The translations under genes and the position numbers were made by a program. A stretch of 43,254 nucleotides of DNA from Bacteroidales bacterium (GTDB lineage: Bacteria > Bacteroidota > Bacteroidia > Bacteroidales > UBA932): NCBI GenBank assembly GCA_021443515.1, contig JABUTT010000243.1, positions 1 through 43,254 of the forward strand. Reading direction: 5' to 3'. This document shows, one piece after another, positions 16,227 to 40,740 of this stretch (positions are counted from its first letter, which is position 1; every line of letters starts with the position of its first letter). The notes below the pieces were generated by a model. The model was not told the origin of the DNA, ran no database searches, and was given only the letters and a program-made list of their open reading frames with translations.

Positions 16227-16267
16227 TTTGAACAAGTAAGTAAAAAAGAAAATAACCAACGAATCTT

Positions 16268-19200: not shown

Positions 19201-19345
19201 CGAGAACATCTACCTTTGGAAGTACTACAACGGATTTGATCCGGATGTCTCTACCAACAGCGATTCCTCAACAATTCGCCGTATGGACCTTGGTGCATAT
19301 CCGAAACCAAGGACATTTATGTTCAGTTTACAGGTTAGATACTAA
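16268..19345 (+). CDS. SusC/RagA-family TonB-dependent outer-membrane transporter
   Basis: Carboxypeptidase-like domain VSGVVTDETGEPLPGVVVVVEGT, plug IRIRGTRSISASNEPLIVVDGV, LKDASSTAIYGSRGSNGVIIITTK, terminal FSLQVRY. Confidence 0.96.
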   Translation: MRQKLISFLLMLCAVVPAFGQSKAKVSGVVTDETGEPLPGVVVVVEGTKDAAMTDMSGKYTINCLPSASLKFSFLGYADETVQVGKRAVVNVQMRVDASQIDEAVVIGYGSVRKADLTGSVTNVKMADIKNVPVTSVDQALQGRIAGADIMSTTGEPGATTSIRIRGTRSISASNEPLIVVDGVMDAIHDLNDLNSADIESITVLKDASSTAIYGSRGSNGVIIITTKSGGSDSATKPNITFKADAGFSQLPRRLDIMNATEFALYRNDYAQFASSDNMGEIGTTTPISESIYKDPFSLGKGTDWIEEITRTAPYQNYNLSFSGANKKTRYYASVGYNNTQGIIKKSGMERIQTAFNIDHQFFKWLKLGYNVRYTYRHNDENLTQIGGTGWYNSAQYLSPLMKPQDIINPLYYSGQRINTPTALLNNNTHYVNRHTLNQVANVEITPIPTLKIRSQFSYYLYERNTNRYYPSTLPIKTEGEGGDAYRSDAEDYSLSSETTVTYDRDFLGGHHLDAMAGFTAYKSASKTFSLSGSGYMVDDNLWNNMNAVIDKETYSASSSYSEISKMSVLARINYNYKQRYYITLTGRADGASNFAANRKWGFFPSGALKWNISNEPWMKNANVVDDLSLRFSAGRTGNDAIGAYRSLAAMSTTTSGYLFGGSQPVAYYPSRLASPNLTWEKTDLYNIALDAGFFGNRLTFTFEAYLAKTTDLLLTVQTATQSGYSSRFANIGSTTNKGLELSIEGKPIVKKNFSWTASFTISHNTQMVNDIGTEDFVVAYSSPGNNPYMMYGYVKGYPLNALWGFVYGGVWHNQDEIDRNQYTKTYASSSVSLAKTLGAPKYVDVNHDGNLNQQDLCYLGNADPVIYGGLQNTFRYKGLSLGFYFMYSLGGKIYNFSEFYMAGSTFTNQYRYMLDSWHPTRNPESNLPRAGVEGPLLPSSLLVHDASFLRLKNITLSYTFNFKKEFFLKDLTISASGENIYLWKYYNGFDPDVSTNSDSSTIRRMDLGAYPKPRTFMFSLQVRY

Positions 19346-19362
19346 TGAAGGAGGAACTGAAA

Positions 19363-20856
19363 ATGAAAAAGATAATTTACAACATCATAGCAATTGCAGC
19401 GCTTGCAGCCTCAGTCTGCGCCTGCGATCTTAATGAGAAGAAACAGGGCTTCGTAAGTACCGAAGACTTCTTCAAGACTACAGAGCAGTGCTATGCCAGC
19501 CTTAACAGCTGCTACATTCCTCTCAAGTCAATCTACACCTACACATTCTTCATCGCGACTGAATGTGTGACCGACCTTGCATACATCGCATCCGGAACTT
19601 TGGATGCCCAACTTGATATTTCTCCTGCGAAACCTCGTTTCGGCTCGACTGTATGGACTCAGTGCTACACAGGTATCAGAAACTCAAATGCTGCGATTGC
19701 AGGTATAGAGAAGGCAGATTTTGAAGATGCCGACAAGGTGACTCTTCTCGGAGAAGGCAAAATTATGAGGGCAATGTATTACTACCTCCTTACTTGTTTC
19801 TTCGGAGACGTGCCTTTCTACACAATGGAAGTAAACACCGTCGAGAAACTTCAGGAAGTTGCCAGATATCCTCGTATGGATGCCGTGACTACCCGCAAGG
19901 AACTCATCAAAGACCTTCTCTCAGTTGTTCCTAACATGGAGCAGATTCGTTCTTCAGAAGTCAAGAACAACAGGGCAGGTGCTGCAGTGGGTTGGATGCT
20001 CATCGCCAAGATGGCAATGTGGAACAAGGATTGGGATCAGGCCATCGAGGCTTGCCAGGCTCTCGAGAAGATTTATGGCGAAATCGACCAATACCCTCTC
20101 GAGGATATTATGTTCCGCAACAAGAACACTCCTGAGTCTATTCTCGAAATCCAGCATACTTACACCGCGGGCGGTCTTCAGTATGTGAGCAATGTGGCTT
20201 GTGTCTGCACTCCGACCCACCAGGGAACAACCTACATTTATGACGGTGTGGAAATTCCTGAACTCGGCAACACCGCAACAACCTGGTCTGCTGCTCGTCC
20301 TAACGCATTCTTCCACACAGGTCTGATGCCTAAGAGTTCGGTCGATCTTCGCAAGAACATCTACCTTGCTTGGGACTATAACGGTCAGACATTCAAGAGC
20401 GTTTCCGCACGTCCTTGGACAGGCCCTAAGTTCTGGTGTCCTAACATGGCTGCTCAGGCTGATGGCAACAACTACAAGGTATTCCGTTACGCCGACGTGC
20501 TTCTCATGCTTTCAGAGTGCTATTGCGAAAAGCAGGACGAGGTCAAATCTATCGAATATCTCAACAAGATTAAGAACCGCGCAGGCATCAAGCCTTTCAC
20601 CACATTCAAGACCTACATCCGCCTTATGGAAGAAATCCGCAAGGAGAGGGGTCGCGAACTCTTCGGTGAATTCCAGCGCAAGTTTGACCTTGTAAGATGG
20701 GGTGTTTGGTACACCGATACCTATGCTTACACAGACTACACTACCCTCAAGAACAATATGCAGCCTTTCCACCGCTTCTATCCAATTCCGGACAAGGAGG
20801 TCGTTTATTCAGGCTATGCTCTTGACAATAAGGAATATGAACAAGGAATTGAATAA
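19363..20856 (+). CDS. SusD/RagB-family nutrient-binding lipoprotein
   Basis: Directly downstream of SusC; LAASVCACDLNEKKQGFVSTEDFFKTTEQCYASLNSCY; C-terminal ERGRELFGEFQRKFDLVRWG is SusD hallmark. Start at 19363 (MKKIIYN) preferred over 19345. Confidence 0.94.
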   Translation: MKKIIYNIIAIAALAASVCACDLNEKKQGFVSTEDFFKTTEQCYASLNSCYIPLKSIYTYTFFIATECVTDLAYIASGTLDAQLDISPAKPRFGSTVWTQCYTGIRNSNAAIAGIEKADFEDADKVTLLGEGKIMRAMYYYLLTCFFGDVPFYTMEVNTVEKLQEVARYPRMDAVTTRKELIKDLLSVVPNMEQIRSSEVKNNRAGAAVGWMLIAKMAMWNKDWDQAIEACQALEKIYGEIDQYPLEDIMFRNKNTPESILEIQHTYTAGGLQYVSNVACVCTPTHQGTTYIYDGVEIPELGNTATTWSAARPNAFFHTGLMPKSSVDLRKNIYLAWDYNGQTFKSVSARPWTGPKFWCPNMAAQADGNNYKVFRYADVLLMLSECYCEKQDEVKSIEYLNKIKNRAGIKPFTTFKTYIRLMEEIRKERGRELFGEFQRKFDLVRWGVWYTDTYAYTDYTTLKNNMQPFHRFYPIPDKEVVYSGYALDNKEYEQGIE

Positions 20857-23282
20857 TGGAGGAACTAATCATGAAAAATATACTTAAAACAATAGCTCTT
20901 TCATTTGTACTTGCCGCAGCAATATCGTCTTGCGACAAGCCTTACGAAATCGATAAACCTCTCGCGCTCACCCAAAAACTTGTAGAACTCAAGGCGACCG
21001 TAGGTGAGACTCCTGTAGCCGTTTATTCAAATGGTTCCTGGACTGCGTCTCTTACGAAGCCTGTCAACTGGGCTGGTATAGACCGCGTGGAAGGTTACGG
21101 ACTTGGAGAAGTCAGATTCACCTACGCAGCCAATTATGGTCTTTCAAGGTCAGTCGGCATTATAATCAAAACTGAAGAGAAGGTTGATACTATTATGATG
21201 GTTCAGGCTGCAGGTCAGACCAATCCTGAATTCCACTTCAACAACCCAAGTTACACCTTTGCAAAGACTCCGGACAGGGCTGCCCTTCCGTTTACCTCTA
21301 ACATACCTTATAACTTGTATGAGGCAGAATGGACAGTGAACTATCCTGAAGGAACTGAAGAGGAAGACTACTGGATTAGTGAAGTTGAAATCAAGAATGA
21401 TTCTGTAGTATTCAATGTTGCCCAGAACTTCGAATCAGCCGACAGGTCTGCTGTTCTCAAGGTTTCGCACACTGATGCTGCAGGCAAGACTCTGACATCT
21501 CAGGTTGAACTCATTCAGGGCAAACTTGACCCATATCTTTCATTCGATGCAAGTATCACAGGCGGTGAGGTCAACTTCTCAAGTACCTCCGTTCTCGTTC
21601 CGGTCGAGTCAAACCTCATTCCTTACCTCTTCAAGATTGTGAAGACTGCCCAGATTTCATACGTGGGAACAGAAAAGGATTGGGTGACAAAGGTTGTGGC
21701 AGATCCTTCTAACGGAGGCGTCCTCGTTTATCTTAAGCCAAACGCTTCGACTGAGCCAAGGAAGGTCACTATCACAATGACCTACGTGGACGGCAACGGA
21801 TCTGCGCCTAAGATCTTCAAACTCAACCTTACCCAGAGTCGTTATGTGAAGTCTTGGACATTCGAGGAAATCAAGAACCTCATTCCTGGCTCTACAGGCG
21901 AATACACATTCACAGACCATGCAATGATTGATGGTGTGGTCATCGGTGACAAGGACAGCAAAAACATGGAATACAATCCTATGGATCCGTCTTCATACAG
22001 CGGTCTTCGTGGTATGATTATGGACTATCAGGACAAGTTTACCTACATTCAGGCTGAAGACGGCTCTCACGGATTCAGGGTACAGTTCGACAAGAAGCAG
22101 AGCAACACTCTCTCACGTTACTCGAAGGTTAAAATCAACCTCAAGGGTGTGAAGGTTGTCAAGGAGGCTGATCCTGCACGCTACACTCTTGAAGGCGTAA
22201 CTATCGATTGTATCGTATCAGTTGCTCCGGGTATTGCGGCAAAGAGAAAGGTTAGGGAACTTAAAGACCTTACTGACAACGATGTCTTTACATACACCAC
22301 TATTCAGGATATGGAAATAACCTTCAAGAGAGGTTGCTACACAAACCTTACTGATGGTTATACCTACAAGACAGACCTCAACCCTATGGGTAACAGCTCG
22401 TCATTCGTGGATGCCTATCCTCTCAACCTCAGGGACCGCAATGGCAATGTCATCTATATGGTAACAAACAGCCAGACTCCTTGGAGAAGAACAGGTAACG
22501 GCGTCCCTCAGGGATCGGGCAATATCTCGGGTATTATCATCGGAGGTACCAATCCTATGATGGAACGTTATGTAACAAAAGGAAATCTCGGAAAATATGC
22601 CATCCGTGTGCTTGAGGAAAGCGATATCGATTTCTATCAGTCTCGCTTTACCAATGTGCTTGTAGAGTGGGATTGGAACGTGAATACGGTTGCTTCTACC
22701 ATACTCGAGCCTACGACGGGCGAAGGAAAACTCTTCTGTAACATCTCGACTGCAACCGGTCTTACTGGCGACTACAACGACCTCGTTTCTACCGGAAGCG
22801 GCAAGGGTGTAATCAATGGAGCCTGCCGTTGGAGTTCGTCTTATTGGTGGGGTGCAACAGATGCTGATGCTCCTTACTTCCAGATTGAATTCTCAACCAA
22901 GGATGTGACAGGTTCAACCCTCGTCTATAACTGGGCTGTCGCTCAAGGCAATGGAAGCAAAACAACCATATTTGCTCCTGTTTACTGGCATCTCGAGTAC
23001 TCTACAGACGGAACAACCTTCACAAAACTCGACAAGGAATATGCAGTGCGTCCTATCGTATGGTGGGACAATGCAATGAGCCTTACGGCAATTCCTGGTC
23101 TTACAGAGTACACTGCGGTTCTTCCTTCAAGCCTCTTCGGTCAGGATAAGGTTTACCTCCGCTTCATCGCTTCAAGCAAGGAAGCTGCAACTCTCACCAC
23201 TCCGGACGGAGGCACTGTACAGGATACAGGCTCAACTGCCGCCTACATCCGCTTCGGCGAAATGTCGGTTCTTTACAACTAA
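20856..23282 (+). CDS. Surface lipoprotein with BACON-like N-terminus and DUF5689-like domain
   Basis: Real start probably MKNILKTIALSFVLAAAISSC (about 20871). Two BACON-like repeats, then TFTDHAMIDGVVIGDKDS...YIQAEDGSHGFRVQF...RYSKVKINLKGVKV resembling DUF5689; C-terminal beta-rich module with SSSYWWG. Confidence 0.7.
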   Translation: MEELIMKNILKTIALSFVLAAAISSCDKPYEIDKPLALTQKLVELKATVGETPVAVYSNGSWTASLTKPVNWAGIDRVEGYGLGEVRFTYAANYGLSRSVGIIIKTEEKVDTIMMVQAAGQTNPEFHFNNPSYTFAKTPDRAALPFTSNIPYNLYEAEWTVNYPEGTEEEDYWISEVEIKNDSVVFNVAQNFESADRSAVLKVSHTDAAGKTLTSQVELIQGKLDPYLSFDASITGGEVNFSSTSVLVPVESNLIPYLFKIVKTAQISYVGTEKDWVTKVVADPSNGGVLVYLKPNASTEPRKVTITMTYVDGNGSAPKIFKLNLTQSRYVKSWTFEEIKNLIPGSTGEYTFTDHAMIDGVVIGDKDSKNMEYNPMDPSSYSGLRGMIMDYQDKFTYIQAEDGSHGFRVQFDKKQSNTLSRYSKVKINLKGVKVVKEADPARYTLEGVTIDCIVSVAPGIAAKRKVRELKDLTDNDVFTYTTIQDMEITFKRGCYTNLTDGYTYKTDLNPMGNSSSFVDAYPLNLRDRNGNVIYMVTNSQTPWRRTGNGVPQGSGNISGIIIGGTNPMMERYVTKGNLGKYAIRVLEESDIDFYQSRFTNVLVEWDWNVNTVASTILEPTTGEGKLFCNISTATGLTGDYNDLVSTGSGKGVINGACRWSSSYWWGATDADAPYFQIEFSTKDVTGSTLVYNWAVAQGNGSKTTIFAPVYWHLEYSTDGTTFTKLDKEYAVRPIVWWDNAMSLTAIPGLTEYTAVLPSSLFGQDKVYLRFIASSKEAATLTTPDGGTVQDTGSTAAYIRFGEMSVLYN

Positions 23283-23296
23283 AATGAGAAAAGAAT

Positions 23297-25582
23297 ATGA
23301 AAAAGATGAATAAAACAGTTTTAGTTTCATTTCTCCTCGCCCTCCCTTTCGCATCATCCTGCAACTATGATGATGCGAAGATGGCTCGTCCGGAAGAACT
23401 TGGAGCAAAGGTAAAAGAGTATGTGGTTGATGAACAACCGGGTACTATCGACATCGATTACCTTTCCAATCTTTCGGGTACAATCACTTTCACCGAAAAG
23501 GTCGATTGGGCTGCTCTCAGCAGCAATAAGTTCAATGGCGATGGAAAAGTTACCGTGGTATATGATGCCAACGAAGGCTTCCCGAGAATGGCTCAGATTG
23601 AACTCATAAGTTCGGGAAATGAGCGCCGTGACACCATACAGCTTCAGCAGAAGGGTGTCATTATGCCTATTCTCAATCTTCCTGCAACAAATGCCCTTGC
23701 CTACAACAAGCAGGACACCAAGGTTGCCATTGAGACCAATGTTCCAAGCATCGACGAGTTTGACATTAAAATCAAATATGTAGGCTCGGATGAGGAGTGG
23801 ATAGAAGACATCACAATGTCGAACGGTTTCCTCAACATAAAGACAAAAGACAATACTACCGCCGATATTCGCAATGCGGTAATCACCTTCAAGTATGTCG
23901 ATGGCTGGAAAAAGGTTCATACCGTGACACTTTCCCTCACCCAGGCGAATAATAAGAATGAATTCGGTGTGGAACGCTCCTTCCCTGAGATTCGTGAAAT
24001 AGTAGAAGAGGCGGGTGGCGTTGCAACCATCACAGGTGACTATCTTCTCAATGGTTATGTAGTAAGCGACAAGTCTTCTCTCAATTCAGGTGAAAATCCG
24101 AGGACAACAACTGCGTCTATCGACTATACAATGAGCCAGCGCACGGTTTATTTCGAGTCACTCGATGGCAAGTATGGCTTTATGCTTGAATTTGCAGACG
24201 AAGAGAATAATACTCTTGAGCGCTACACCAAGGTTCAGATTCTCATAAAGGGGGCAAAGGTAACTCAATACATTGACCCTAAGAGATTTGTGATTTCAGG
24301 TCTTCTCGCTTCTCAGGTAATGAAGGCAGAAAAGGTTTCGGAAAGCGAAATCCCTGCAAAACAACTTCATTACAAGGATATCACTGATGACGATATCTAC
24401 ACTCAGGTACAACTTATGGATATCGAGCTTCCTGTACGTCAGGGACCTCTCTTCCCTTGCAACGAAGGTTATACTCTCGCAACAGGTGCAGACCGTATTA
24501 CCAAATATCCTAAACTTCTTATGGATAATGAGGGCAATATGTTCTACCTTCTCACAAACAGCAATTGCGTCTATCGTAACAATGGTCAGAAACTCCCTTA
24601 CGGAAAGGGAAGCATGAAACTCGTGGTTGTTCACGAAAAATGTCGTCAGTATGTGGATGAGGATAATGAAGATGAAGACGAGTGCGGTTACATCGGCCGT
24701 TATCAGTTCCGTCATGTAGCCCTCAACGACCTCTACGACAATATGACCGACGGTATTCTCGACGATGTTTGCGGCAACGGCTTCCTCACTGAGTACCGCT
24801 ATATGAAGTCCAATGGTGATGGTACCTGGGCTCCGACCTATGGCAAGAACGGCTGGTTCACCCACTCTTACAAGGGTTATAAGACCTCGAGGGGAGATTA
24901 TGGCCACGGTACTCAGACATTCAAGTATCTCGGTCCTATCGGTAACCTTGCAACCCGTCCTTTCGGACTCCACAGGGGTAACGAGAATGGACTTGGTATC
25001 TTCCTCGAGGATGGTACCGAATATGGTAATGCCGCAATGGGTGGTTACTTCGAACTTATCAATGATGATGCTAATGGTACAAACTATGGCAAGGGTTGGG
25101 TTCCGGCTGACTGTTATTGTGCGTGGGCAAACGCCTACTGGTGGGATGACGAGAGAGAACAGCCTTACTACTGGCTCATCAACTTCTCTACAAAGGATAT
25201 CGAAACCGATTATCTCACTTTGCAGATGACAGTTATGAACAACGCATACGAAGGCGGCCCTCGTTACTGGAAGGCAGAATGGACTACAGACCCGTCTGAC
25301 GACGATTGGGATTCTTCAGCCTGGAAACTCATTGACAACTATGTTGTTTCAGATGTTGCAAACTGGAACAATACACTCTACTATCAGTTCTCTGCATTCA
25401 AGGAAGTGGGACTCACCCTCCCTCTTGAAATGCTTGACAAGGAAAGTGTCTATATCCGTCTCATGCCTTCTGCTGACATCGCAGGCGATCAGGTAACCTA
25501 TCAGGGCGGTACAATCGCAAAGAGCGGCAAGACAGCAAACAGTGCAATCGATTATTTTGCAATCAGATACAGTAAAAAATAA
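23297..25582 (+). CDS. Surface lipoprotein paralogous to the preceding gene (BACON/DUF5689-like)
   Basis: YLLNGYVVSDKSSLN...YFESLDGKYGFMLEFADEENNTLERYTKVQILIKGAKV matches the 20856 ORF architecture; C-terminal ANAYWWDD...FSTKD parallels SSSYWWG...FSTKD. Confidence 0.7.
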   Translation: MKKMNKTVLVSFLLALPFASSCNYDDAKMARPEELGAKVKEYVVDEQPGTIDIDYLSNLSGTITFTEKVDWAALSSNKFNGDGKVTVVYDANEGFPRMAQIELISSGNERRDTIQLQQKGVIMPILNLPATNALAYNKQDTKVAIETNVPSIDEFDIKIKYVGSDEEWIEDITMSNGFLNIKTKDNTTADIRNAVITFKYVDGWKKVHTVTLSLTQANNKNEFGVERSFPEIREIVEEAGGVATITGDYLLNGYVVSDKSSLNSGENPRTTTASIDYTMSQRTVYFESLDGKYGFMLEFADEENNTLERYTKVQILIKGAKVTQYIDPKRFVISGLLASQVMKAEKVSESEIPAKQLHYKDITDDDIYTQVQLMDIELPVRQGPLFPCNEGYTLATGADRITKYPKLLMDNEGNMFYLLTNSNCVYRNNGQKLPYGKGSMKLVVVHEKCRQYVDEDNEDEDECGYIGRYQFRHVALNDLYDNMTDGILDDVCGNGFLTEYRYMKSNGDGTWAPTYGKNGWFTHSYKGYKTSRGDYGHGTQTFKYLGPIGNLATRPFGLHRGNENGLGIFLEDGTEYGNAAMGGYFELINDDANGTNYGKGWVPADCYCAWANAYWWDDEREQPYYWLINFSTKDIETDYLTLQMTVMNNAYEGGPRYWKAEWTTDPSDDDWDSSAWKLIDNYVVSDVANWNNTLYYQFSAFKEVGLTLPLEMLDKESVYIRLMPSADIAGDQVTYQGGTIAKSGKTANSAIDYFAIRYSKK

Positions 25583-25600
25583 CCAAATAATTATTAACAC

Positions 25601-28600
25601 ATGAAGAAGATTTTATCTATCCTCTTTGCGGGACTGCTCGTTTTGGCAGCCTGCACAAAGCAAGAACCGAAGAAGACTCTCGAGTCTTTCTCGATTAAGC
25701 CTGCTACAGTTGCTGTGACAGAAGGTGAAAGTTTCAAAATCACAGTTACGGCAAAGCCTGTTTATGAAGATATGGAAGTCGCTTTCAAATCTTCAGATGA
25801 AAAAGTGGTCAAGGTTAATGAAAAAGGTCAGGTAACTGCCATCGGCGAAGGTAAGGCAACCATTACCGTTTCAAACAGCATTGACTCCAAGACTGCAGAA
25901 TGTTCTGTGACTGTTGCCAAGAAGGTTGTTCTTGAGAGCATTACAGTCGAGCCTTCCGAGACAAAACTTGTCATCGGCAAGACTCTCAAGATTGAAATGA
26001 CTCCTAATCCTTACATTCCAGATCTCGAATTCACTTGGGCTTCAAGCAACTCGGATGTTGTGACTGTTGACCAGGAAGGCAATATCACAGGTGTTTCAGA
26101 AGGTGAGGCTACAGTTACCGTCACAAACGCACTTTACGACAAGAGCGCTTCAGTGAAGGTTACAGTTACCATCAACCTCTTCAGCGGTGGTAGCGGTTCG
26201 GCCTCAGATCCTTATCAAATTGCCAATATCGATGACCTTAAACTCTTCGCTGACTACAGCCGTGGTGGCGAGTCAATCTCCAAGTATGGTTTCGAGTCAG
26301 CTCACTACATCGTCACAAAAAACATCGAGATGAACTGTTTTGGTGAGGCTGGCGACACTGTCGATTTCCTCAGCCCTGCTTATGCTACAGTCGAGAAACC
26401 ATTCAAGGGTACTTTCAACGGCAACAACAAGGTCATCTATAAAATTTTCCTCGGCGACCGCTTCGACGAGAGCATTCCAAGCAAGACCGATACAGTAAAT
26501 GTTATTGAAAAAGGTATCGGCCTCATCGGTGTTCTTAACGGTGGTACAGTTCAGAATGTGATTCTCGAAAATCCTCACATTGAAAGTAACTCTGTCTGCA
26601 TCGGTGGTATCGTTGGATATGCCGAGAATGGCCAGATTACCGGTTGCAAGGTTATCGGTGGCGTTCCTTCATCCGTAATAGATGGCGACGATTACAAGGA
26701 TAATGCAAGCGTTACTTCAAACGACGGCGCATATATCTATGGTAAAGGTTATTATGCACAAGCGGGAGCAGTGACTCCACCTCCGTTCGGTGAAGATGGA
26801 TATAAATCCCAGTATGCTCTTGTCGGCGGCATCGTGGGTTATGCAGTTGGTTCTACTGTTATTTCAGGCTGCGAGGTTAATGCCTACGTGCGTGCAACCA
26901 ATCGTGGCGTTGGAGGTATTGCAGGTGCTCTCAACGGCTCCGCATCCATCTCAAATTGTACTCAGAATGGTCTTGTCTGGGGTAGTATGACGGGCAATGG
27001 AGGTATTACAGGTATCATCGTTAGCAACACTGTTTCCGACTGTACAGTCAATGGTTGCGTTTATGGCAAGTATTCGTATGTAGGTGGCGTTGTTGCTGTT
27101 ACTGCAGGTACTGCAAAGATTCAGAATTGCAAGATTGAAAATGGCGTTGTTCACACAGGTTTCAAAAACACAAGCGGTGGAACAAGAATCGGAGGTATTA
27201 TCGGCGGCTCTTGGGTTGCTGCTCCTGAAGTTACGGGATGTAAGGCAATCAACTCCAAAATACTTTCAAATGCTACAATCTGCGCTGCCATTGTTGGTGT
27301 TGCAAACAATGGTATCGTAATCAAGGACTGCGAAGTTACAGATTGTTTTGTTGACGATACCAATGAACCAGAAAACTCCGCAGCTAAACACGAGGTTGCC
27401 GGTATTCTCGGCTGGGGTAAAGTTTCGGTTGATGTTTCCGGCTGTACAGTTAAGAATTCTACAATGGTTGGTAACGCTTATTGCAGTATGATTGTGGGCT
27501 ATGCAGATGCCCCTCTTACGAAGATTACAAATTGTACTGCGGACAATTGTGAATTGAGAGCTGGTCAGTCTCTTGGTGGTATCCTTGGAGCAGCAACAAA
27601 ACACGCTGAAATCAGTGGTTGCGAGGTAACTAACTGTACAATCGCAGGAACAGGTGCTTATATTGCAGGTATTCACGGAGAGGCTCAGGCAGGTACAGAG
27701 ATTTCTAACTGCAAGGTTGAAAATACATCCCTCAGTCAGCCTGCAGCCAAGAACTTCATAGGTGGTATCAACGCATATTCAAAAGTCGGCGAACTCAAGG
27801 TTACTGACTGTAAGGTTATCGATATCGACATCTTTGGCGGTGGTCAGGGCAATGGTTGTGTAATAGGCCGTTCTGACTTCGCCACTATAGTAAAGAACTG
27901 CTATGTAAGTGGTAAGATTGAAACTGCTACTGCAGGCTACAATGTTGGCGGTATCATCGGACATATCAACTCTGGAGCAAATGCAGTGGACCTCATCATC
28001 GACAACTGCGCTGTTGAGGCTGACATCACAGGTGGTTACCAGGTTGGAGGTATCTGCGGTCTTTCAGCAGGAACAGGCACAACTCCTATCATTATCTCTA
28101 ATGTAAGTTATGTCGGAAAACTCTCTGCTTTGTCGGCTCCTGCCAATTATCCTAATGCAAATATCGCAGGTATTGTAGGTTACGCCAACAATGCTTCGCA
28201 GAACAAGCCTTTGTATGTGGTCAACGCATACGCAAGACCTTCTCAAATTGATATTACAAGCAAGGTTACAGGTGGCAGCGGAGCTATCGGAGGTCTCTTC
28301 GGTTATGCTCAGTGGAATGTGTCTGCATTCATCGGCTATTCTGACCTTGTAAGAGGCAAGATTTATAAGGATGGAGTTCAGATTGACGGAACTCAGGCTC
28401 GCGTCGGAGGTATTGCGGGTGTGACTTGCTACACAGCTTCAGCATCTTATGGTACACTCCTCTACAAGAACCTCTACTATGATTCATCTATCGGCTTCGG
28501 TCCTACAAATGATGGTCAGGGTGCTCCGGATGAGGTTGACTGCGAGGGTATAACTGAGGCTAAGTTTACAGATGGAACACTTCTTTCTAACCTCAACGCA

Positions 28601-28705
28601 GCTGTGACCGCTTACAATGCTTCCGAGTCAAAGGTTGCTACAGCCAAGGCTTGGGTTGCTGGCGCAGACGGTTATCCTGTAATCTCAGGTTTACCAACCA
28701 AGTGA
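25601..28705 (+). CDS. Big2-domain and GLUG-repeat surface lipoprotein
   Basis: Lipobox LVLAAC; two Big2-like repeats (VTAIGEGKATITV; ITGVSEGEATVTV); many repeats of the form GGIVGYA..xISGCxVxx, characteristic of GLUG motifs. Confidence 0.8.
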   Translation: MKKILSILFAGLLVLAACTKQEPKKTLESFSIKPATVAVTEGESFKITVTAKPVYEDMEVAFKSSDEKVVKVNEKGQVTAIGEGKATITVSNSIDSKTAECSVTVAKKVVLESITVEPSETKLVIGKTLKIEMTPNPYIPDLEFTWASSNSDVVTVDQEGNITGVSEGEATVTVTNALYDKSASVKVTVTINLFSGGSGSASDPYQIANIDDLKLFADYSRGGESISKYGFESAHYIVTKNIEMNCFGEAGDTVDFLSPAYATVEKPFKGTFNGNNKVIYKIFLGDRFDESIPSKTDTVNVIEKGIGLIGVLNGGTVQNVILENPHIESNSVCIGGIVGYAENGQITGCKVIGGVPSSVIDGDDYKDNASVTSNDGAYIYGKGYYAQAGAVTPPPFGEDGYKSQYALVGGIVGYAVGSTVISGCEVNAYVRATNRGVGGIAGALNGSASISNCTQNGLVWGSMTGNGGITGIIVSNTVSDCTVNGCVYGKYSYVGGVVAVTAGTAKIQNCKIENGVVHTGFKNTSGGTRIGGIIGGSWVAAPEVTGCKAINSKILSNATICAAIVGVANNGIVIKDCEVTDCFVDDTNEPENSAAKHEVAGILGWGKVSVDVSGCTVKNSTMVGNAYCSMIVGYADAPLTKITNCTADNCELRAGQSLGGILGAATKHAEISGCEVTNCTIAGTGAYIAGIHGEAQAGTEISNCKVENTSLSQPAAKNFIGGINAYSKVGELKVTDCKVIDIDIFGGGQGNGCVIGRSDFATIVKNCYVSGKIETATAGYNVGGIIGHINSGANAVDLIIDNCAVEADITGGYQVGGICGLSAGTGTTPIIISNVSYVGKLSALSAPANYPNANIAGIVGYANNASQNKPLYVVNAYARPSQIDITSKVTGGSGAIGGLFGYAQWNVSAFIGYSDLVRGKIYKDGVQIDGTQARVGGIAGVTCYTASASYGTLLYKNLYYDSSIGFGPTNDGQGAPDEVDCEGITEAKFTDGTLLSNLNAAVTAYNASESKVATAKAWVAGADGYPVISGLPTK

Positions 28706-28753
28706 AGGTTTTAATCCAATTCAAACAACTTCTAAGAAGTTGAATTCTAAATA

Positions 28754-28791
28754 AAAAGAGGGGCGGCCGAGCGGTCGTCTCTTTTTTTTTG
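28754..28791 (+). terminator. Intrinsic terminator after the SusCD/GLUG unit
   Basis: AAAAAGAGGGGCGGCCGAGCGGTCGTCTCTTTTTTTT: extended stem, GAGC loop, T-run. Confidence 0.85.
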
Positions 28792-28825
28792 CTATATTTG
28801 TAGGTATAATGATAAATCCGTTTTT

Positions 28826-30100
28826 ATGAAGAAGATAGCACTATTTATTCTCTCGATTTTATTGTTTGCCGCGTGCAACAAAAACCCTGATACCCCGGGT
28901 CAGAACTTTGGTTTTGTGATTACAGAACAGGAAATTGACTACGGTGCAACTGAGGTCGAAATCAAGTTCTACAGCGCTAAGGAATGGACTGCAAAGAGCA
29001 ATGGCAAATGGGCCGCTCTCAAGGTTACTTCAGGCTCCGGCTCCAAGACCGAGCAGAGTCTCAAGGTCGTGGTTGCCGAGAACGATGGAGACGAAAAACG
29101 CAAGGCGGTCATCATTCTTACCGATGGAGATGAAAGTTCGATGTTTAACCTTTATCAGCGTCCTAAGAATCCTACAAAGGTGACCTTGCTCTACTGGAAC
29201 ATCCAGGACGGTATGTGGGCAGACCAGGCGAACAATTACAGCAAATTCATAGAATGGGTTAAGAAATACGACCCGGATATCTGTGTTTGGAACGAAGCCG
29301 CTTCTCTCTACAAGACAGGCACTTACACAGGTATGTCTTGGCGTACCGGTCAGTTCCCTGACGGATGGCTTCCAATCGCGAATAAATATGGCCACAACTG
29401 CGTGGGTATAAGTTATATTACTCCTCCTAACAAGAATGTGGGTTATGACCACTTCCCTCAGGTAATTACCACAAGGAATACCCCTGTTGTGAAGGTTGAG
29501 GATTTCATTGGCTCTACCGCTGCAAAGACCGACACTGTCATCACTCGTCGCGGTGCTTGGCAGACAGTGGAGATAGCGGGCCATACCGTAAACTTCATCA
29601 CTCTCCACCTCTGGCCGTTCAACTACCATCCAAACGAAGGCTCGACTTCGACCTCTAACCTTACTATCGGCAGTAATTATCGCCGTGCAGAACTTATGTA
29701 CATGTTCCAGCGCAGTATTCTCACTCATCCGAACGCCAAGGACGAGTATTGGATTTGCCTCGGCGATTTCAACTCCCGCAGCCGTATGGACCAGTGGTAC
29801 TACAACTACTCGGGTGATAACCTTAACTGGTTTATTCCTCACGATTACATTGCTGAAGCAACGCCTCTCATCGATGTAGTCGGCACTTTCAACGAAGGCA
29901 AGTTCTGCTCGAGCACTGCCGGCAGCACACGAATCGACTTCGTTTATGCAACTCCTCGTCTTATGAAGGCTGTCACTGCGGCATACGTGCCTATTGACGA
30001 CTTCGCTGTACAGACTCCAAAGAAGTGTACTTTCGACAATGGTACTCTCTACGACCCTTCAGATCACCGACCAATCCTTGTAACATTTGAAATAAGATAG
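28826..30100 (+). CDS. Lipoprotein with BACON-like N-terminus and endonuclease/exonuclease/phosphatase (EEP) fold
   Basis: Lipobox LLFAAC; EEP motifs in order: YWNIQDG, DICVWNEA, FITLHLWP, CLGDFNSRS, RIDFVYA, DPSDHRPILV. Confidence 0.85.
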   Translation: MKKIALFILSILLFAACNKNPDTPGQNFGFVITEQEIDYGATEVEIKFYSAKEWTAKSNGKWAALKVTSGSGSKTEQSLKVVVAENDGDEKRKAVIILTDGDESSMFNLYQRPKNPTKVTLLYWNIQDGMWADQANNYSKFIEWVKKYDPDICVWNEAASLYKTGTYTGMSWRTGQFPDGWLPIANKYGHNCVGISYITPPNKNVGYDHFPQVITTRNTPVVKVEDFIGSTAAKTDTVITRRGAWQTVEIAGHTVNFITLHLWPFNYHPNEGSTSTSNLTIGSNYRRAELMYMFQRSILTHPNAKDEYWICLGDFNSRSRMDQWYYNYSGDNLNWFIPHDYIAEATPLIDVVGTFNEGKFCSSTAGSTRIDFVYATPRLMKAVTAAYVPIDDFAVQTPKKCTFDNGTLYDPSDHRPILVTFEIR

Positions 30101-30104
30101 ATTT

Positions 30105-33100
30105 ATGAAACGCCTTGCCCTTGTCCTTGCGGCGATGACAACCGTTATGTTCGCCTGCAAACAGGAAATTCCCGAAAAACCTGAAGAAAAAACTCTTGAC
30201 GTCTTCAAGCCTGTGCAAAATGAATTTGTGCTGGTGAAAGGCGAAACTGCACAAGTCGAGTTAGAGTCCTCCATAGCTCTTAAAGAACTCGAAATTGACT
30301 GGTTATCCTCAGATACAAAAGTAGTGAGTGTGAGCGACGGCGGCCTTATCACAGCAAAAAGTGAGGGCGAAGCCGAGGTTACAGCCATAGTGAACAAATA
30401 TGGAAACGAGGCTGTGGTCAAGGTGACTGTGGCTGCTGTAAAGGTCGAAATTTCGCCTGCATCCGACACTTTGGCAATTGCCGACAAACTCAAGTTTACC
30501 ACCCTCGTTGAGCCTAAGGACCTCCCTCTCGTTTGGACTTCTTCCGCTCTTTCTGTAGCGATGGTCAATCAGGAAGGCGAACTTACAGCCGTAGGCGCGG
30601 GTATAGCGAACATCAAGGCTGAGAACGAGGCAAGCAAGGCTGCAGGAGCCTCAAAAATCCTTGTGGCCGATATGAAACTCACCACTAAGGTCGCATCTCT
30701 CGTGGAACTCTCAACTTCCACATTCAAGGTTACAACCTATCCTCCGGTTTATGATCCTGAGATTATCTGGGAGTCTTCCGACCCTGCGGTAGCGACAGTT
30801 TCCCCTGAGGGCGTGGTTACGGCAGTAAAGGCCGGTAAAACCACGATTTCCGCTACAACTGCCTGCAAACCTGCAATCAAGGTCTCAAGCGACCTGACGG
30901 TATCTATATATCAGTATTTTTCCTCAGGCGAGGGCACGGAGGCTTCTCCATTCGTAATCAAGACGGCTGCAGAACTCAAAAAATGGTCTGACATAGCGAA
31001 TGGTACTGCACCGAATCCTAAGGAAATAGACTTCACGAAGGCATATTTTGAACTCGGTGCCGATATCGATATGAAATCGACCTCTTTCGCTGCAATTCCT
31101 ACATTCTCGGGTAGTTTCGACGGCAAGAGCCACGTTATACGCAATCTCACAATATCTGAGGCAACGGCAAATCCTTTGGGCTTCTTCAGGGAAATCAGCG
31201 ATGCAAGAATCAAAGACCTCTCGCTGAGCGAAATAAATATAACAAGCACGAGCACAACCCAGCTTTATGTAGGCTCGCTTGCGGGCAAGGCTGAAAACTC
31301 CACAATAACCAATGTCGATGTGACAGGCGTTGTTGTCTCAGCAGGCAAGGGAACCATTCCTCTTGGAGGCAGCGTGGTCGTATCGGGCGGCGTTGTGGGC
31401 CAGAGCACGGGCTGCACGATAGATGGTTCAGACCTTCGTCTTTATATCAGTTCGCAAGGCCAGTATATTGGCGGCGTGGCAGGACTTTGCTACGGCAAGA
31501 CTGTAATCAAGAACTGCAAACTGGGCAAAGGTTCGGAACTTATGTGTCTTATGAACAATGCCGGAGGTATTGCCGGGGCAATACTGGAAGAAACAGAGGT
31601 TTCCGACTGCGAGTGCCACGGAGCGGTAAAAGGCAAATATGCAATGGTCGGCGGTATCGTGGGCCAGGTGTTCTGCGGATCGGTCAAGAATTGCCTTGTA
31701 AGCAGCAGCGCATCCGTCCTTGGCGATGTAGGCAACGCAACGGCGGCTGATTCATACGCGGGAGTCGGCGGAGTCGTGGGTAAAATCAATGTAACTTCTA
31801 CAAGCAAGAAGGCAGTTATCGAGAACTGCTCGGTATATTGCGATGTGACCGCTAACGACACCATAGGCGGTATAGTAGGTTTCACGGCAAGCGCAATCGA
31901 TGTTCCAACAGCCATAGTGAACTGCCTCTATTCCGGCAAGCTTACTGCCCTTTACAAGAATAATTACGCTTATTCTCTTGCCGGAGGTATCGTCGGTTGG
32001 GCGGGCAATCCTGCAAATGCCGTGCTTTACATTGCAAACTGCGCTTGTATAGTAAAAGGCATAGTCACCAACATCGTCGCTGCTACAAGTGGTTGTGTGG
32101 GCGGACTCTTCGGATATTCCCAGAACAAGAACGACATCACTTCCTGCTATTCGACAATTACGGCAGACCAGATTGTGACAACCGACGGAGCTCAGATAGC
32201 CACGACTTCAATGGCAAACTACGGAGGCCTTGCAGGTCGCTCTGCTGGCAATGCTTCAGGAAATGAGTATAATCAGTGCTACTATTCATCTGCTGTCAAG
32301 GCTGTCGGTATGGGTGCATCCTCTCAGACTCTCGATAATGCTTACGCAGTAGAATCTCTCAAAGAGGCAAGTGTAAAGACTGGTCTTGAGAGCGGAAGTT
32401 CAGCCTTCAATGCCCGCAGTCTCGGCTTCACTGCAAGTTCATGGACTACAAATACAGACGGTTATTTCGTGCCTTCGACAGTAAAACCGGACACCAATCC
32501 GGGCGGAGGAACTCCACTCAAGGTGAGCCTTATCGGAGACTCTATTTCTACATTCAATGGCTATCTGCCAACGGGCTACAATACATTCTATCCTACCGGC
32601 GATGTGGTTTCGGCATCCCAAACCTATTGGTATCGTCTCATCTACAACAATATGCAGAATGCGGTTCTTGAGAAGAACATTGCCTGGACAGGAACTCTTG
32701 TAACCCGTTCACTCAACACTGCTATGGCGAGCCAGCATTGGTATGGCCACGATTTCAATGCCCGTTTCATCAAGGACGGTATGGGAAATCCTGATGTTAT
32801 CCTCGTTCACGGCGGTACGAACGATGTAAGTAGCCGCGGCTACAACGAGGCGCAGGTGAAACTCTACAAGAGTCTTGCGACAAATGGTTCTGCCTATCCT
32901 TCAGACGCAGAATTTGCTGAGGTATTTGCAGTTGTGGATGCAGCCGCAACCCGCGTTCAGCTTGAGGCTTTGCCTGACACAACCTTCGTTGAGGCCTATA
33001 CCAAACTCATAGCCCTCATCCATCAGCAGTATCCATCAGCAAAGGTGGTTATGCTCATCGGAGACTATCTCCCTGAGGGAGCGCGTCAGTCAGTTCTTAA

Positions 33101-33278
33101 AATAGCCGCCCACTACAACAGCCTCTATGGCTACAGGGTTGTGGACTTCGTGGCAAGCAACGGCTTCCAAAGCAGCAAATATATCACTAAGGCCACAGGT
33201 TGCCACCCTGATTCCAATGGTTTCAAATGGATGGCAGACCAGATTTACAAAGAAGTTGGATCTTATATCGAACAATAA
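30105..33278 (+). CDS. Multidomain lipoprotein: Big2-like repeats, GLUG-like repeats, C-terminal SGNH/GDSL hydrolase
   Basis: MKRLALVLAAMTTVMFAC; Big2-like VTAVKAGKTTISA; GLUG-like GGVVGQSTGCTIDGSDL, GGIVGQVFCGSVKNCLV; C-terminal VSLIGDSISTFNGY, VILVHGGTNDVSS, ATGCHPDSNGFKWMAD. Confidence 0.82.
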   Translation: MKRLALVLAAMTTVMFACKQEIPEKPEEKTLDVFKPVQNEFVLVKGETAQVELESSIALKELEIDWLSSDTKVVSVSDGGLITAKSEGEAEVTAIVNKYGNEAVVKVTVAAVKVEISPASDTLAIADKLKFTTLVEPKDLPLVWTSSALSVAMVNQEGELTAVGAGIANIKAENEASKAAGASKILVADMKLTTKVASLVELSTSTFKVTTYPPVYDPEIIWESSDPAVATVSPEGVVTAVKAGKTTISATTACKPAIKVSSDLTVSIYQYFSSGEGTEASPFVIKTAAELKKWSDIANGTAPNPKEIDFTKAYFELGADIDMKSTSFAAIPTFSGSFDGKSHVIRNLTISEATANPLGFFREISDARIKDLSLSEINITSTSTTQLYVGSLAGKAENSTITNVDVTGVVVSAGKGTIPLGGSVVVSGGVVGQSTGCTIDGSDLRLYISSQGQYIGGVAGLCYGKTVIKNCKLGKGSELMCLMNNAGGIAGAILEETEVSDCECHGAVKGKYAMVGGIVGQVFCGSVKNCLVSSSASVLGDVGNATAADSYAGVGGVVGKINVTSTSKKAVIENCSVYCDVTANDTIGGIVGFTASAIDVPTAIVNCLYSGKLTALYKNNYAYSLAGGIVGWAGNPANAVLYIANCACIVKGIVTNIVAATSGCVGGLFGYSQNKNDITSCYSTITADQIVTTDGAQIATTSMANYGGLAGRSAGNASGNEYNQCYYSSAVKAVGMGASSQTLDNAYAVESLKEASVKTGLESGSSAFNARSLGFTASSWTTNTDGYFVPSTVKPDTNPGGGTPLKVSLIGDSISTFNGYLPTGYNTFYPTGDVVSASQTYWYRLIYNNMQNAVLEKNIAWTGTLVTRSLNTAMASQHWYGHDFNARFIKDGMGNPDVILVHGGTNDVSSRGYNEAQVKLYKSLATNGSAYPSDAEFAEVFAVVDAAATRVQLEALPDTTFVEAYTKLIALIHQQYPSAKVVMLIGDYLPEGARQSVLKIAAHYNSLYGYRVVDFVASNGFQSSKYITKATGCHPDSNGFKWMADQIYKEVGSYIEQ

Positions 33279-33305
33279 TCCCCAGAAAAAATCAATTCTT
33301 AACTC

Positions 33306-33956
33306 ATGAAAATCGATAAATTTCTTCAGTTGTTTGTGGTGAAGGAGAAACGCTTCTTCCCACTCTTCACAGAGTCTGCCGAGAACATCCTTAAGGCAGC
33401 AAATCTTCTTCTCGAACAGACCAAGGAGGAGGATGCTCTCAAACGTCGCACCTACGCTCACCTCATCAAAGAGTGTGAAACAAAGGGTGACAGGATAACC
33501 GATACAATAGTCGGAGAAATCCTTGCGGCCTTCGTGACTCCTTTTGACCGTGACGATATCCACCAGCTTGCAGAGGGAATGGACACCTTCCTCGACTGCT
33601 TGAGAGACTGCTCGAAGAAGATAGCAATTTATCAGCCCAAGGCTTGTTCAAAGAAACTGATAGAAATTGCGGAATATCTCGTGAAGGATGCTGAAACCAT
33701 TGTGGAAATCACAAAACATTTCGACTCTATGCGTGATGACGTGAAGATTCTCAATGGACTTTGCGATACTCTGAAGGAGAATGAGCATATAGTTGACGAC
33801 ATCTTCGAAAGTTATATGTCCAATCTCTTTGAGATGGAGAAAGATGCTGTGGAACTTGTCAAGAAGAAGAATATCGTGGAAATTCTCGAAGATTCGACCG
33901 ATACGGCAAAAACCCTTTCCAACACTATCCGCAGCATAGTTGTCAAGATGAGTTAA
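33306..33956 (+). CDS. DUF47 / PhoU-like phosphate transport accessory protein
   Basis: About 216 aa helical protein directly upstream of PiT; FAAFVTPFDRDDIHQLAEGMDTFLDCL is a DUF47 hallmark. Confidence 0.92.
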   Translation: MKIDKFLQLFVVKEKRFFPLFTESAENILKAANLLLEQTKEEDALKRRTYAHLIKECETKGDRITDTIVGEILAAFVTPFDRDDIHQLAEGMDTFLDCLRDCSKKIAIYQPKACSKKLIEIAEYLVKDAETIVEITKHFDSMRDDVKILNGLCDTLKENEHIVDDIFESYMSNLFEMEKDAVELVKKKNIVEILEDSTDTAKTLSNTIRSIVVKMS

Positions 33957-33957
33957 G

Positions 33958-35058
33958 ATGGTAGCGATAGTCCTCATAACGGCGCTCATTGCGCTCATTT
34001 TCAGTTTTACAAATGGAATGAACGATGCTGCAAACTGCATCGCTTCGGTCGTTGCCACAAAGGCTCTGTCTCCAAAGGTGGCGGTTGCCTGGGCTGCAAT
34101 CTGGATATTCTCCGCCCTTTTCGTCTTTGATATGACGGTTGCTTCGACTATGGGCAAGGGTATTGTTTCGGAAAACTGCATAGATGTATATGTCATCCTT
34201 TCGGCCCTTCTTGGCTCAGTTTTCTGGATTTTCACCTGCACCAAACTCGGGCTTCCAATTTCGGCTTCACACGCTCTCATAGGCGGTCTCATCGGTCCGG
34301 TATGGTTTGTTTACGGCAGCCAGTACCTCGTCACAAGCGGCATTTTCCTCATCATTGCCTTCATCGTGATTTCCCCTCTTTTGGGTATCATTCTCGGCTT
34401 CTTCTTAAATTGCCTCTTTATGGCGATATTCAAAAAACGTAATGCCAAGAAGGTGGATAAGGGCTTCCGAACAATGCAGCTGGTTTCAAGCGCGGCCTTT
34501 TCCCTTGGCTTCGGAGGAAATGACGGTCAGAAGACTATGGGTATAATAGCCATTCTCTTCGCCTCTGCTTTCGCTTCCAATCCCGACAATGCCGTGATGC
34601 AGTTCCTCTATGGCAACGGAGCTGTTCACGCAGGAGCCTATCTTGCTGATGGAACGGCAGTTGAAGGCGCTGCGTTCTTCGTTCCGACCTGGCTGAAACT
34701 CGTATGCTACGGCCTAATTTCCCTTGGCACCGTAACAGGCGGTTGGAAGGTTATACGCACCCTCGGAGACGGACTTAGCAAACTTTATCCGGTGTCAGGC
34801 TTCTGCGCCGAGACTTCGGGAGCAATCACCCTCATTCTCACAGCAGTCGTAGGTATCCCAGTAAGCACCACCCACACCATCACAGGCTCCATAATCGGAA
34901 CAGGTCTTACTCGCGGCTTCAAGTCAGTGAAATGGATGACGGCAAAGAACATCGTATGGGCATGGGTTCTCACCATCCCTGCAGTAATCGTCGTTTCCGG
35001 TCTCATCTACCTTGCAATGGTCCACTGGTTCGGTGCCCCAGTAAAAGTCTTACCGTAA
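33958..35058 (+). CDS. Inorganic phosphate transporter, PiT family
   Basis: FSFTNGMNDAANCIASVVATKAL, LPISASHALIGGLIG, GFGGNDGQKTMG, GIPVSTTHTITGSIIGTG. Confidence 0.95.
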   Translation: MVAIVLITALIALIFSFTNGMNDAANCIASVVATKALSPKVAVAWAAIWIFSALFVFDMTVASTMGKGIVSENCIDVYVILSALLGSVFWIFTCTKLGLPISASHALIGGLIGPVWFVYGSQYLVTSGIFLIIAFIVISPLLGIILGFFLNCLFMAIFKKRNAKKVDKGFRTMQLVSSAAFSLGFGGNDGQKTMGIIAILFASAFASNPDNAVMQFLYGNGAVHAGAYLADGTAVEGAAFFVPTWLKLVCYGLISLGTVTGGWKVIRTLGDGLSKLYPVSGFCAETSGAITLILTAVVGIPVSTTHTITGSIIGTGLTRGFKSVKWMTAKNIVWAWVLTIPAVIVVSGLIYLAMVHWFGAPVKVLP

Positions 35059-35062
35059 TAGT

Positions 35063-36349
35063 ATGAAAATACTGATAATAAACGGCAGTCCGAAGGGTAA
35101 GTATTCAACTACACTTCATTCCTGCCTTTTTCTTGAAAAGAAGTATCCGGAACATTCGTTTTCATATTTGAATGCCGGAGTGAAAATCAAATCGTTGGAG
35201 AAGGACTTTTCTCCTGCTCTTGAAGCGATTTCCTCGGCAGACTTGATAGTGTTCAGTTACCCTGTATACACTTTCCTTGCCCCGAGCCAACTCCACCGCT
35301 TCATTGAACTTATGAAGGAGTCAGGAGTCGATTTTTCCTCCAAGATTGCCACGCAGATTACCACTTCTAAGCATTTTTACGACATAACCGCTCATCGTTT
35401 CGTCACCGACAACTGCGCAGATATGGGAATCAGGACCTTGGAGGGATTTTCTGCAGACATGGACGATATTCTTACTGAGAAAGGCCGGAAACAGGTATGC
35501 GACTGGTTTGAAATGACTCAGTGGAGAATCTCTCCTGCTGGCGTTACGGCCAAAGACAAGTCCGCTTTCAAGGCAGTCATCGTAGCCGATTTCGGTCCGG
35601 ATGGTCAGTATAAGCAACTGAAGGCTATGGTGGACTCTTTCGTGAGCATTTTCCCGTTTGAGTGCGATGTAATTGACATTCAGGATTTTCCTTTTCAGGG
35701 AGGCTGCATCAGCTGTTTTAACTGCGCGTCAACCGGAAAGTGCTTCTACAAGGACGGCTTCGATGATTATCTCCGCAATGTGATTCATAAACACGATGCG
35801 ATTCTATATGCCTTCAAAATCAAGGATCATTCAATGGGAACCCGATTCAAGATTTATGACGACAGGCAGTTCTGCAACGGCCACAGAACCGTGACTATGG
35901 GAACGCCATTCGGCTACATCGTGGACGGCGACTACTCGAAGGAAGAAAATCTCAGGATGTTGCTTGAGGCACGCGCCCAGGTTGGTGGCAATTTCCTTGC
36001 AGGTGTAGCGACGACTGAGGCCGGCTCAATCTCCCTCACCGAACTGTCAAACACGGTTTGCTATGCTTTGGAGCACAAAATTGCTCCTCCACAGAATTTC
36101 CTTGGAGTCGGCGGTATGAAGATATTCCGTGACCTGATATACCAAATGAGGGGAATGATGCGTGCCGACCATAAATTCTTCAAGAGCCACGGCCAATACG
36201 ACTTCCCTCAGAAAAAGTGGAAAACCTCCCTTTTGATGTATCTCGTCGGCTGGATGATGGGCAACCGCTCCCTCAAAGCAAAAATGGGCAACAAACTCAA
36301 CGAAGGCATGATCTCCGCCTACAAAAAAGTCGTCGACGAGGTGGAGTAA
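35063..36349 (+). CDS. Double flavodoxin-like NAD(P)H/FMN-dependent oxidoreductase family protein
   Basis: N-terminal MKILIINGSPKGKYSTT...LIVFSYPVYTFLAPSQL; second half KAVIVADFGPDGQYKQLKAMV...FPFQGGCISCFNCASTGKCFYKDGFDDYL resembles NADPH-FMN reductase-like proteins. Confidence 0.75.
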   Translation: MKILIINGSPKGKYSTTLHSCLFLEKKYPEHSFSYLNAGVKIKSLEKDFSPALEAISSADLIVFSYPVYTFLAPSQLHRFIELMKESGVDFSSKIATQITTSKHFYDITAHRFVTDNCADMGIRTLEGFSADMDDILTEKGRKQVCDWFEMTQWRISPAGVTAKDKSAFKAVIVADFGPDGQYKQLKAMVDSFVSIFPFECDVIDIQDFPFQGGCISCFNCASTGKCFYKDGFDDYLRNVIHKHDAILYAFKIKDHSMGTRFKIYDDRQFCNGHRTVTMGTPFGYIVDGDYSKEENLRMLLEARAQVGGNFLAGVATTEAGSISLTELSNTVCYALEHKIAPPQNFLGVGGMKIFRDLIYQMRGMMRADHKFFKSHGQYDFPQKKWKTSLLMYLVGWMMGNRSLKAKMGNKLNEGMISAYKKVVDEVE

Positions 36350-36358
36350 CAGAATCTT

Positions 36359-36406
36359 CTTCGTAGTTTTCTTCGTAGTTTTCTTCGTAGTTTTCTTCGT
36401 AGTTTT
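36359..36406. repeat. Perfect 12-bp tandem repeat, 4 copies (CTTCGTAGTTTT; EENY on minus strand)
   Basis: CTTCGTAGTTTT x4 with partial CTTCT on the right; one minus frame reads EENYEENYEENYEENYEE. Confidence 0.95.
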
Positions 36407-36583
36407 CTTCTCTATAAACCGTAGGAACAATAATTCTGGCTTGTCCCGCGGAAACCAATTTGGTTATCGAATTCAAAATATTCGAGACAATAGCGATATA
36501 ATGAATCATATCAGAGAAAATTCAGGTTATTATAAATTTCTGTTAGAGATATTAGATGAATATGACAAGGTCTAGCTATATGG

Positions 36584-40659: not shown

Positions 40660-40662
40660 TTT

Positions 40663-40732
40663 CGTTTCCCTTCGTTGTCATTAAACATATCAGGTTAAAG
40701 GGTATGATCTCAGCCTTTCGGCACCCCTAACG
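40663..40732 (-). promoter_or_regulatory. TPP riboswitch (THI element) upstream of thiM
   Basis: Minus strand CGTTAGGGGTGCCGAAAGGCTGAGATCATACCCTTTAACCTGATATGTTTAATGACAACGAAGGGAAACG: conserved GGGGTGCC, CTGAGA, ATACCC, ACCTGAT, CGAAGGGA; P1 CGTT/AACG. Confidence 0.93.
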
Positions 40733-40740
40733 TTTCTGTG

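Follow-up and report, generated by a model that had tools for sequence, protein, structure and literature searches.

A SusC/SusD–DUF5689 locus with a nuclease-type lipoprotein abutting a DUF47–PiT phosphate transporter pair in a Bacteroidales genome

SusC/SusD pairs are best known for glycans, and the cargo of many others is an open question. The Pus loci of Flavobacterium johnsoniae are SusCD-like, carry periplasmic phosphodiesterases together with a PhoA-type phosphatase, and are Pi-inducible (PMC8115612). Secreted nucleases for DNA use are common in Bacteroidota (PMC8289736, PMC11495043); SusC or SusD is mentioned in neither of these reports. DNA transformation in Riemerella requires a DUF5689 protein and a neighbouring carboxypeptidase-regulatory outer-membrane protein (PMC8459023). 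A literature search that left out preprints and many journals returned a single paper on DUF5689 and no prior description of a SusCD-DUF5689-nuclease locus. Pairing of PitR with the transporter PitA has been described across bacteria (PMC13170248); that PitR corresponds to the DUF47 family is our own reading, the name DUF47 not being used in that paper.

Layout of the window

The window is the whole stretch of DNA analyzed here, 43,254 nucleotides of contig JABUTT010000243.1 (assembly GCA_021443515.1) from an uncultured Bacteroidales bacterium of the gut. The original prediction concerned four of its genes, encoding an endonuclease/exonuclease/phosphatase (EEP) lipoprotein, an SGNH lipoprotein, DUF47, and a PiT transporter, which were taken to form a phosphate-scavenging operon. 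Their coordinates, their common strand, and the intergenic gaps of 4, 27, and 1 bp were exact. Absent from that description were the SusC/SusD/DUF5689 block directly upstream of the EEP gene (15192-28705) and a flavodoxin-like gene, the fifth on the same strand, located 4 bp past PiT. The features are as follows.

15192..16226, + strand: LP1 lipoprotein, first gene of the SusCD-DUF5689 locus; no Pfam match; its homologue precedes SusC in relatives
16268..19345, + strand: SusC-like TonB-dependent outer-membrane transporter (TIGR04056, 855 bits)
19345..20856, + strand: SusD-like surface lipoprotein (PF07980, PF14322)
20856..23282, + strand: LP2, BACON-DUF5689 lipoprotein (PF18942, E 1e-10; BACON)
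23297..25582, + strand: LP3, BACON-DUF5689 lipoprotein (BACON; DUF5689 at E 1.4e-5 and 25.6 bits, below the cut-off of 28.6)
25601..28705, + strand: LP4, Big_2/GLUG-repeat lipoprotein (Big_2, GLUG); L137 has a homologue upstream of its EEP gene
28753..28788, + strand: strong intrinsic terminator closing the SusCD block (-22.2 kcal/mol, z -4.0, 3' side rich in U)
28793..28800, + strand: TATATTTG, resembling a Bacteroidales -7 box (read from the sequence)
28826..30100, + strand: EEP lipoprotein, BACON plus endonuclease/exonuclease/phosphatase domain, catalytic residues complete (Pfam, alignment, motifs)
30105..33278, + strand: Big_2/GLUG/SGNH lipoprotein (three Big_2, GLUG, Lipase_GDSL_2)
33306..33956, + strand: DUF47 (PhoU_div), PitR-type accessory protein (PF01865, E 3.7e-18)
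33958..35058, + strand: PiT (PHO4) inorganic phosphate transporter (PF01384, E 2.1e-78)
35063..36349, + strand: flavodoxin-like/FMN reductase gene (PF03358, PF02525)

The SusC and SusD genes are adjacent, and no glycosidase was found in the run. DUF5689, which falls below the cut-off in LP3 itself, was detected in 11 of 11 aligned LP3 homologues. The idea that DUF5689 is an OB-fold nucleic-acid binder was tried and set aside: the AlphaFold model of LP3 is weak, at a pLDDT of 66.5, and most of its fold matches were Ig-like and cadherin repeats. A profile comparison with PDB sequences gave no match.

The consensus of the Bacteroidales -7 box is TAnnTTTG; a -33 box matching the element at 28793..28800 was not seen. 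Between the SGNH and DUF47 genes, where a terminator had been reported lacking, we likewise found no terminator-like fold (33255-33315, z -0.09). The flavodoxin-like gene is possibly co-transcribed with PiT; in G048 and G004, relatives having both genes, the two lie on different contigs. Just 3' of it the 12-bp unit TTCTTCGTAGTT is repeated perfectly in tandem, 4.5 times (window 36357-36410), and a TPP riboswitch is found further on (window 40650-40738, - strand), ahead of probable minus-strand thiamine genes.

The EEP and SGNH lipoproteins and their loci in relatives

The EEP gene matches BACON (E 1.7e-8) and Exo_endo_phos (PF03372, E 3.3e-6), the latter just above its cut-off (27.5 versus 24.5 bits) and spanning positions 2-225 of the 225 in the profile. 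Catalytic motifs were located at residues 123-414 (YWNIQ, WNEA, LHLW, LGDFNS, RIDF, and PSDH), among them all those named in the original prediction, and across 20 aligned homologues the catalytic N, E, H, D-x-N, D, and D-H do not vary. Both the EEP and the SGNH protein have a lipobox, and from the lipoboxes alone the EEP lipoprotein would be expected to be exposed at the surface. Its predicted model (pLDDT 84) matches APE1, Tdp2, LINE-1 endonuclease, and Mth0212, with fold matches down to E 7e-13 and an identity of just 12-18% in the best structural matches. These matches suit a nuclease but are no proof of one, because the fold is common to phosphatases; the EEP superfamily also includes sphingomyelinases and inositol phosphatases. 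No solved relative was retrieved by phmmer, and a profile search gave LINE-1-type endonucleases only. The EEP lipoprotein probably acts on phosphodiesters. It is divergent, with an identity of at most 43%, and its branch falls outside the main groups of SusCD-linked EEPs, without firm grouping with them.

The match of the SGNH gene to Lipase_GDSL_2 is also just above the cut-off (33.1 versus 32.9 bits). The domain keeps the serine of the GDS motif, the asparagine of GGTND, and the C-terminal histidine. The aspartate that a catalytic triad usually has three residues ahead of that histidine is missing, and 14 homologues show no conserved one either; the enzyme may use a Ser-His dyad or an aspartate from elsewhere.

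Named records with related loci bear the labels uncultured Bacteroidales, Alistipes, or Candidatus Cryptobacteroides; loci are cited here by L numbers and genomes by G numbers. The EEP set comprised 80 loci from named GTDB genomes, each taken with flanks of up to 10 kb. Elsewhere in the genus, and in a single genome from another family, EEP genes are likewise part of a SusC-SusD-DUF5689-DUF5689 locus. This arrangement is present at 16 of the 80 EEP loci, including that of the cultivated Alistipes montrealensis (L196), and its usual order is EEP-LP1-SusC-SusD-LP2-LP3. Loci of four other genomes (L126/L088, L211, L212, and L246) resemble the window in having an EEP downstream of SusC-SusD-LP2-LP3. 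Counting against the SusCD reading, 56 of the 80 EEP homologues are not near any SusC. The terminator at 28753-28788 separates the SusCD block from EEP in the window, and several relatives have EEP directly ahead of LP1-SusC. Judged by gene order in these relatives, the EEP gene is part of the SusC/SusD/DUF5689 locus.

The association also appears when SusC is taken as the starting point. SusC homologues were ranked by identity, and those 43% or more identical to the window SusC were taken as its family. Of 30 family loci, 22 have an EEP or S1/P1 nuclease gene within 10 kb, versus 0 of 36 generic SusC loci (Fisher, 3e-11). This comparison has limits: the control loci were hand-picked among the lower-identity matches listed, the family loci are not phylogenetically independent, several of those lacking a nuclease are cut by contig ends, and Pfam matches were listed down to about E 2e-9, so that weak EEPs near control loci could escape. 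Four loci of the family carry an S1/P1 nuclease (PF02265) and no window-type EEP (L118:1210-2082, L120:17519-18361, L123:870-1739, and L125:10873-11736), and three further ones carry EEP genes of other subfamilies. In L137 (G009), a GLUG lipoprotein, a DUF4886-like lipoprotein, EEP, an S1/P1 nuclease (L137:11993-12793), and a GLUG-SGNH protein follow one another, the same kinds of gene as LP4-EEP-SGNH in the window, with the nuclease added and without PiT.

Other neighbours of EEP were recorded as well. At 8 of the 80 EEP loci (L185, L218, L219, L228, L229, L230, L235, and L237), EEP is immediately followed by a type I phosphodiesterase/nucleotide pyrophosphatase gene. A histidine phosphatase gene adjoins the EEP homologue in L073, leaving inositol phosphates as a possible substrate. 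Several EEP paralogues, at some of the Alistipes-type loci among L176, L180, L193, L199, and L221, seem to adjoin purine-biosynthesis genes (AIRS_C, GATase_5, SAICAR synthetase); this is possibly a hint of nucleotide metabolism, or possibly a position fixed by descent.

The DUF47-PiT pair

The DUF47-PiT pair is genuine, as originally predicted, and is a constant feature of the genus wherever PiT occurs. PiT is present in 33 of 400 genus genomes, the window's genome included, and in the 399 further genomes DUF47 accompanies it at 32 of 32 loci, directly adjacent in 30 and with one predicted gene between in 2. The commonest context is formed by GlnRS-like, Wzi-like, aminotransferase, and decarboxylase genes before the pair and an ABC transporter after it (labels assigned by eye). 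In relatives too, no more than some 20 bp usually part the start of DUF47 from the gene before it, so that DUF47 seems to rely on upstream promoters. The Na/Pi cotransporter (PF02690) was found in 2 of 9 genomes with PiT versus 21 of 21 without it (n = 30; Fisher, 2e-5), and the window's genome is one of the two in the 30 with both. No PstB-type match at E below 1e-60 was obtained in the window's genome. In this genus PiT appears to be a general importer of phosphate, taking the place of the Na/Pi cotransporter in most genomes that carry it.

The original prediction had named a lack of conservation of the EEP-PiT linkage in relatives as evidence against itself, and no such linkage was found: EEP, SGNH, SusC, and LP3 occur at 0 of the 32 other DUF47-PiT loci of the genus, and DUF47 and PiT are absent within 10 kb of all 80 independent EEP loci. 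These neighbourhoods rule out a conserved EEP-PiT operon. DUF47-PiT is an ordinary, self-contained cassette located behind different genes in different species, and behind EEP-SGNH in the window's species only; its coupling to EEP is probably fortuitous.

In genome G018, a 5'-nucleotidase gene (Metallophos plus 5_nucleotid_C, L068:4787-6526) lies 1 bp upstream of DUF47-PiT. An enrichment of phosphoesterases upstream of the pair was considered and rejected, as L068 is the only direct case, with one farther away in L163 and a PAP2-like gene in L149 (by eye), which is too few and post hoc. A plasmid search for SGNH-DUF47 gave no match.

Proposed function and relation to known systems

The explanation that we favour, and consider somewhat better than evenly supported, is that two modules abut in the window, a surface locus for degradation and uptake of nucleic acid (phosphodiester) and a PitR-PitA importer. 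The first would extend over 15192-33278 and comprise the SusC/SusD pump, the BACON-DUF5689 and Big/GLUG lipoproteins, the EEP hydrolase, and the SGNH acylhydrolase. The EEP lipoprotein would cut an extracellular phosphodiester polymer at the cell surface, for which nucleic acid is the prime candidate. The fragments would then be captured by SusD together with the BACON-DUF5689 lipoproteins, and SusC would import them with TonB energy. Carbon, nitrogen, nucleobases, and phosphorus could be gained together. With phosphorus as one of several nutrients, the original phosphate idea may hold in part. The second module (33306-35058), of PitR-PitA type, would move inorganic phosphate across the inner membrane, and transcripts from the EEP promoter may run on into DUF47-PiT. 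The sequences themselves establish the gene content, the intact EEP active site, the conserved company of SusCD-DUF5689 with a nuclease, and the lack of a conserved EEP-PiT association; the surface location, the nucleic-acid substrate, import by SusCD, and co-transcription are inferences. The main argument for nucleic acid is the exchange of EEP for an S1/P1 nuclease; the second is the need for a DUF5689 protein and its neighbouring outer-membrane protein in Riemerella transformation (PMC8459023). The uninterrupted same-strand run from EEP to PiT, with its tiny gaps, counts against a division into two modules. In a broader form, which we put forward tentatively and would not rate at even chances, the locus would be a conserved one of Bacteroidales, in which a dedicated SusC/SusD pair and nucleic-acid-capturing DUF5689 proteins import oligonucleotides produced at the surface by a nuclease that can be either EEP or S1/P1; there would be a relationship to the DUF5689/TonB-type DNA-uptake proteins of Flavobacteriia.

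The gaps and the terminator-free junction speak for the original idea of a phosphate-scavenging operon, in which surface EEP and SGNH release phosphate and co-transcribed DUF47-PiT imports it, a lineage-specific analogue of Flavobacterium Pus. The Na/Pi cotransporter that the window's genome also keeps fits this idea, as PiT may then be an extra, dedicated importer, and so do the 5'-nucleotidase of G018 and the Pus loci, where SusCD is coupled with phosphoesterases under Pi induction (PMC8115612). Against this stand the failure of the link at all 32 other DUF47-PiT loci and all 80 EEP loci, the lack of any recognised phosphomonoesterase in the run, and the consideration that a lone EEP nuclease yields oligonucleotides and not free phosphate. 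We therefore regard the operon as unlikely; a catalytically complete EEP, the DUF47-PiT pair, and a layout permitting EEP-to-PiT co-transcription stand, whereas a functional EEP-PiT link is not supported. More plausible, if still short of an even chance, is plain adjacency, with DUF47-PiT having its own promoter and sharing neither transcript nor function with EEP-SGNH. It agrees with the variety of unrelated genes that precede the pair in relatives, those of Wzi-like, aminotransferase, and decarboxylase type being frequent among them, and with the ABC transporter after it, but less well with the 27 bp between SGNH and DUF47 or with the similarly close upstream genes in relatives. As it concerns transcription only, it is compatible with the two-module explanation.

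The substrate and the junction itself admit other readings. The SusCD-EEP locus could target phospholipid or inositol-phosphate headgroups in place of nucleic acid, the SGNH enzyme removing acyl groups. The sphingomyelinases and inositol phosphatases of the EEP superfamily, the histidine phosphatase neighbour in L073, and the SGNH partner of EEP in the window would agree with this, but in five loci an S1/P1 nuclease takes the place of EEP or accompanies it, and the closest structural neighbours are nucleases, which makes such a target improbable. A misassembly joining two contigs between SGNH and DUF47 is conceivable in a draft genome (1.63 Mb, 251 contigs) with a junction seen in no relative; neither GC nor GC3 shifts at that point, and we consider this explanation very improbable indeed.

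Since PiT is a general importer and its position here is peculiar to one species, the phosphate-operon finding is of little weight. A conserved SusCD-DUF5689-nuclease locus, present also in cultivated Alistipes, would make feeding on nucleic acids or phosphodiesters by gut Bacteroidales testable and would offer a lead on DUF5689.

Compared with known systems, the DUF47-PiT pair resembles the PitR-PitA modules, which likewise consist of adjacent PhoU-like accessory and PiT genes (PMC13170248), and no difference in the pair was seen. With Riemerella RA0C_RS04915/RS04920 the locus shares a DUF5689 protein adjoining an outer-membrane protein of the carboxypeptidase-regulatory type; that system serves DNA uptake in transformation, and the available text describes no SusD or nuclease alongside (PMC8459023). 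Like Pus, the window locus has SusC/SusD-type genes beside phosphoesterase and not glycosidase genes; it differs in having DUF5689 lipoproteins together with EEP (S1/P1 nuclease in relatives), and its EEP is a candidate phosphodiesterase without a recognised phosphomonoesterase in the run. SusCD polysaccharide utilisation loci likewise combine SusC, SusD, surface lipoproteins, and a surface hydrolase, whereas the hydrolase in the window is a nuclease-type enzyme. The SusCD-DUF5689-nuclease locus is thus a variant of the SusCD utilisation loci, and a more interesting object than the coupling of EEP to PiT.
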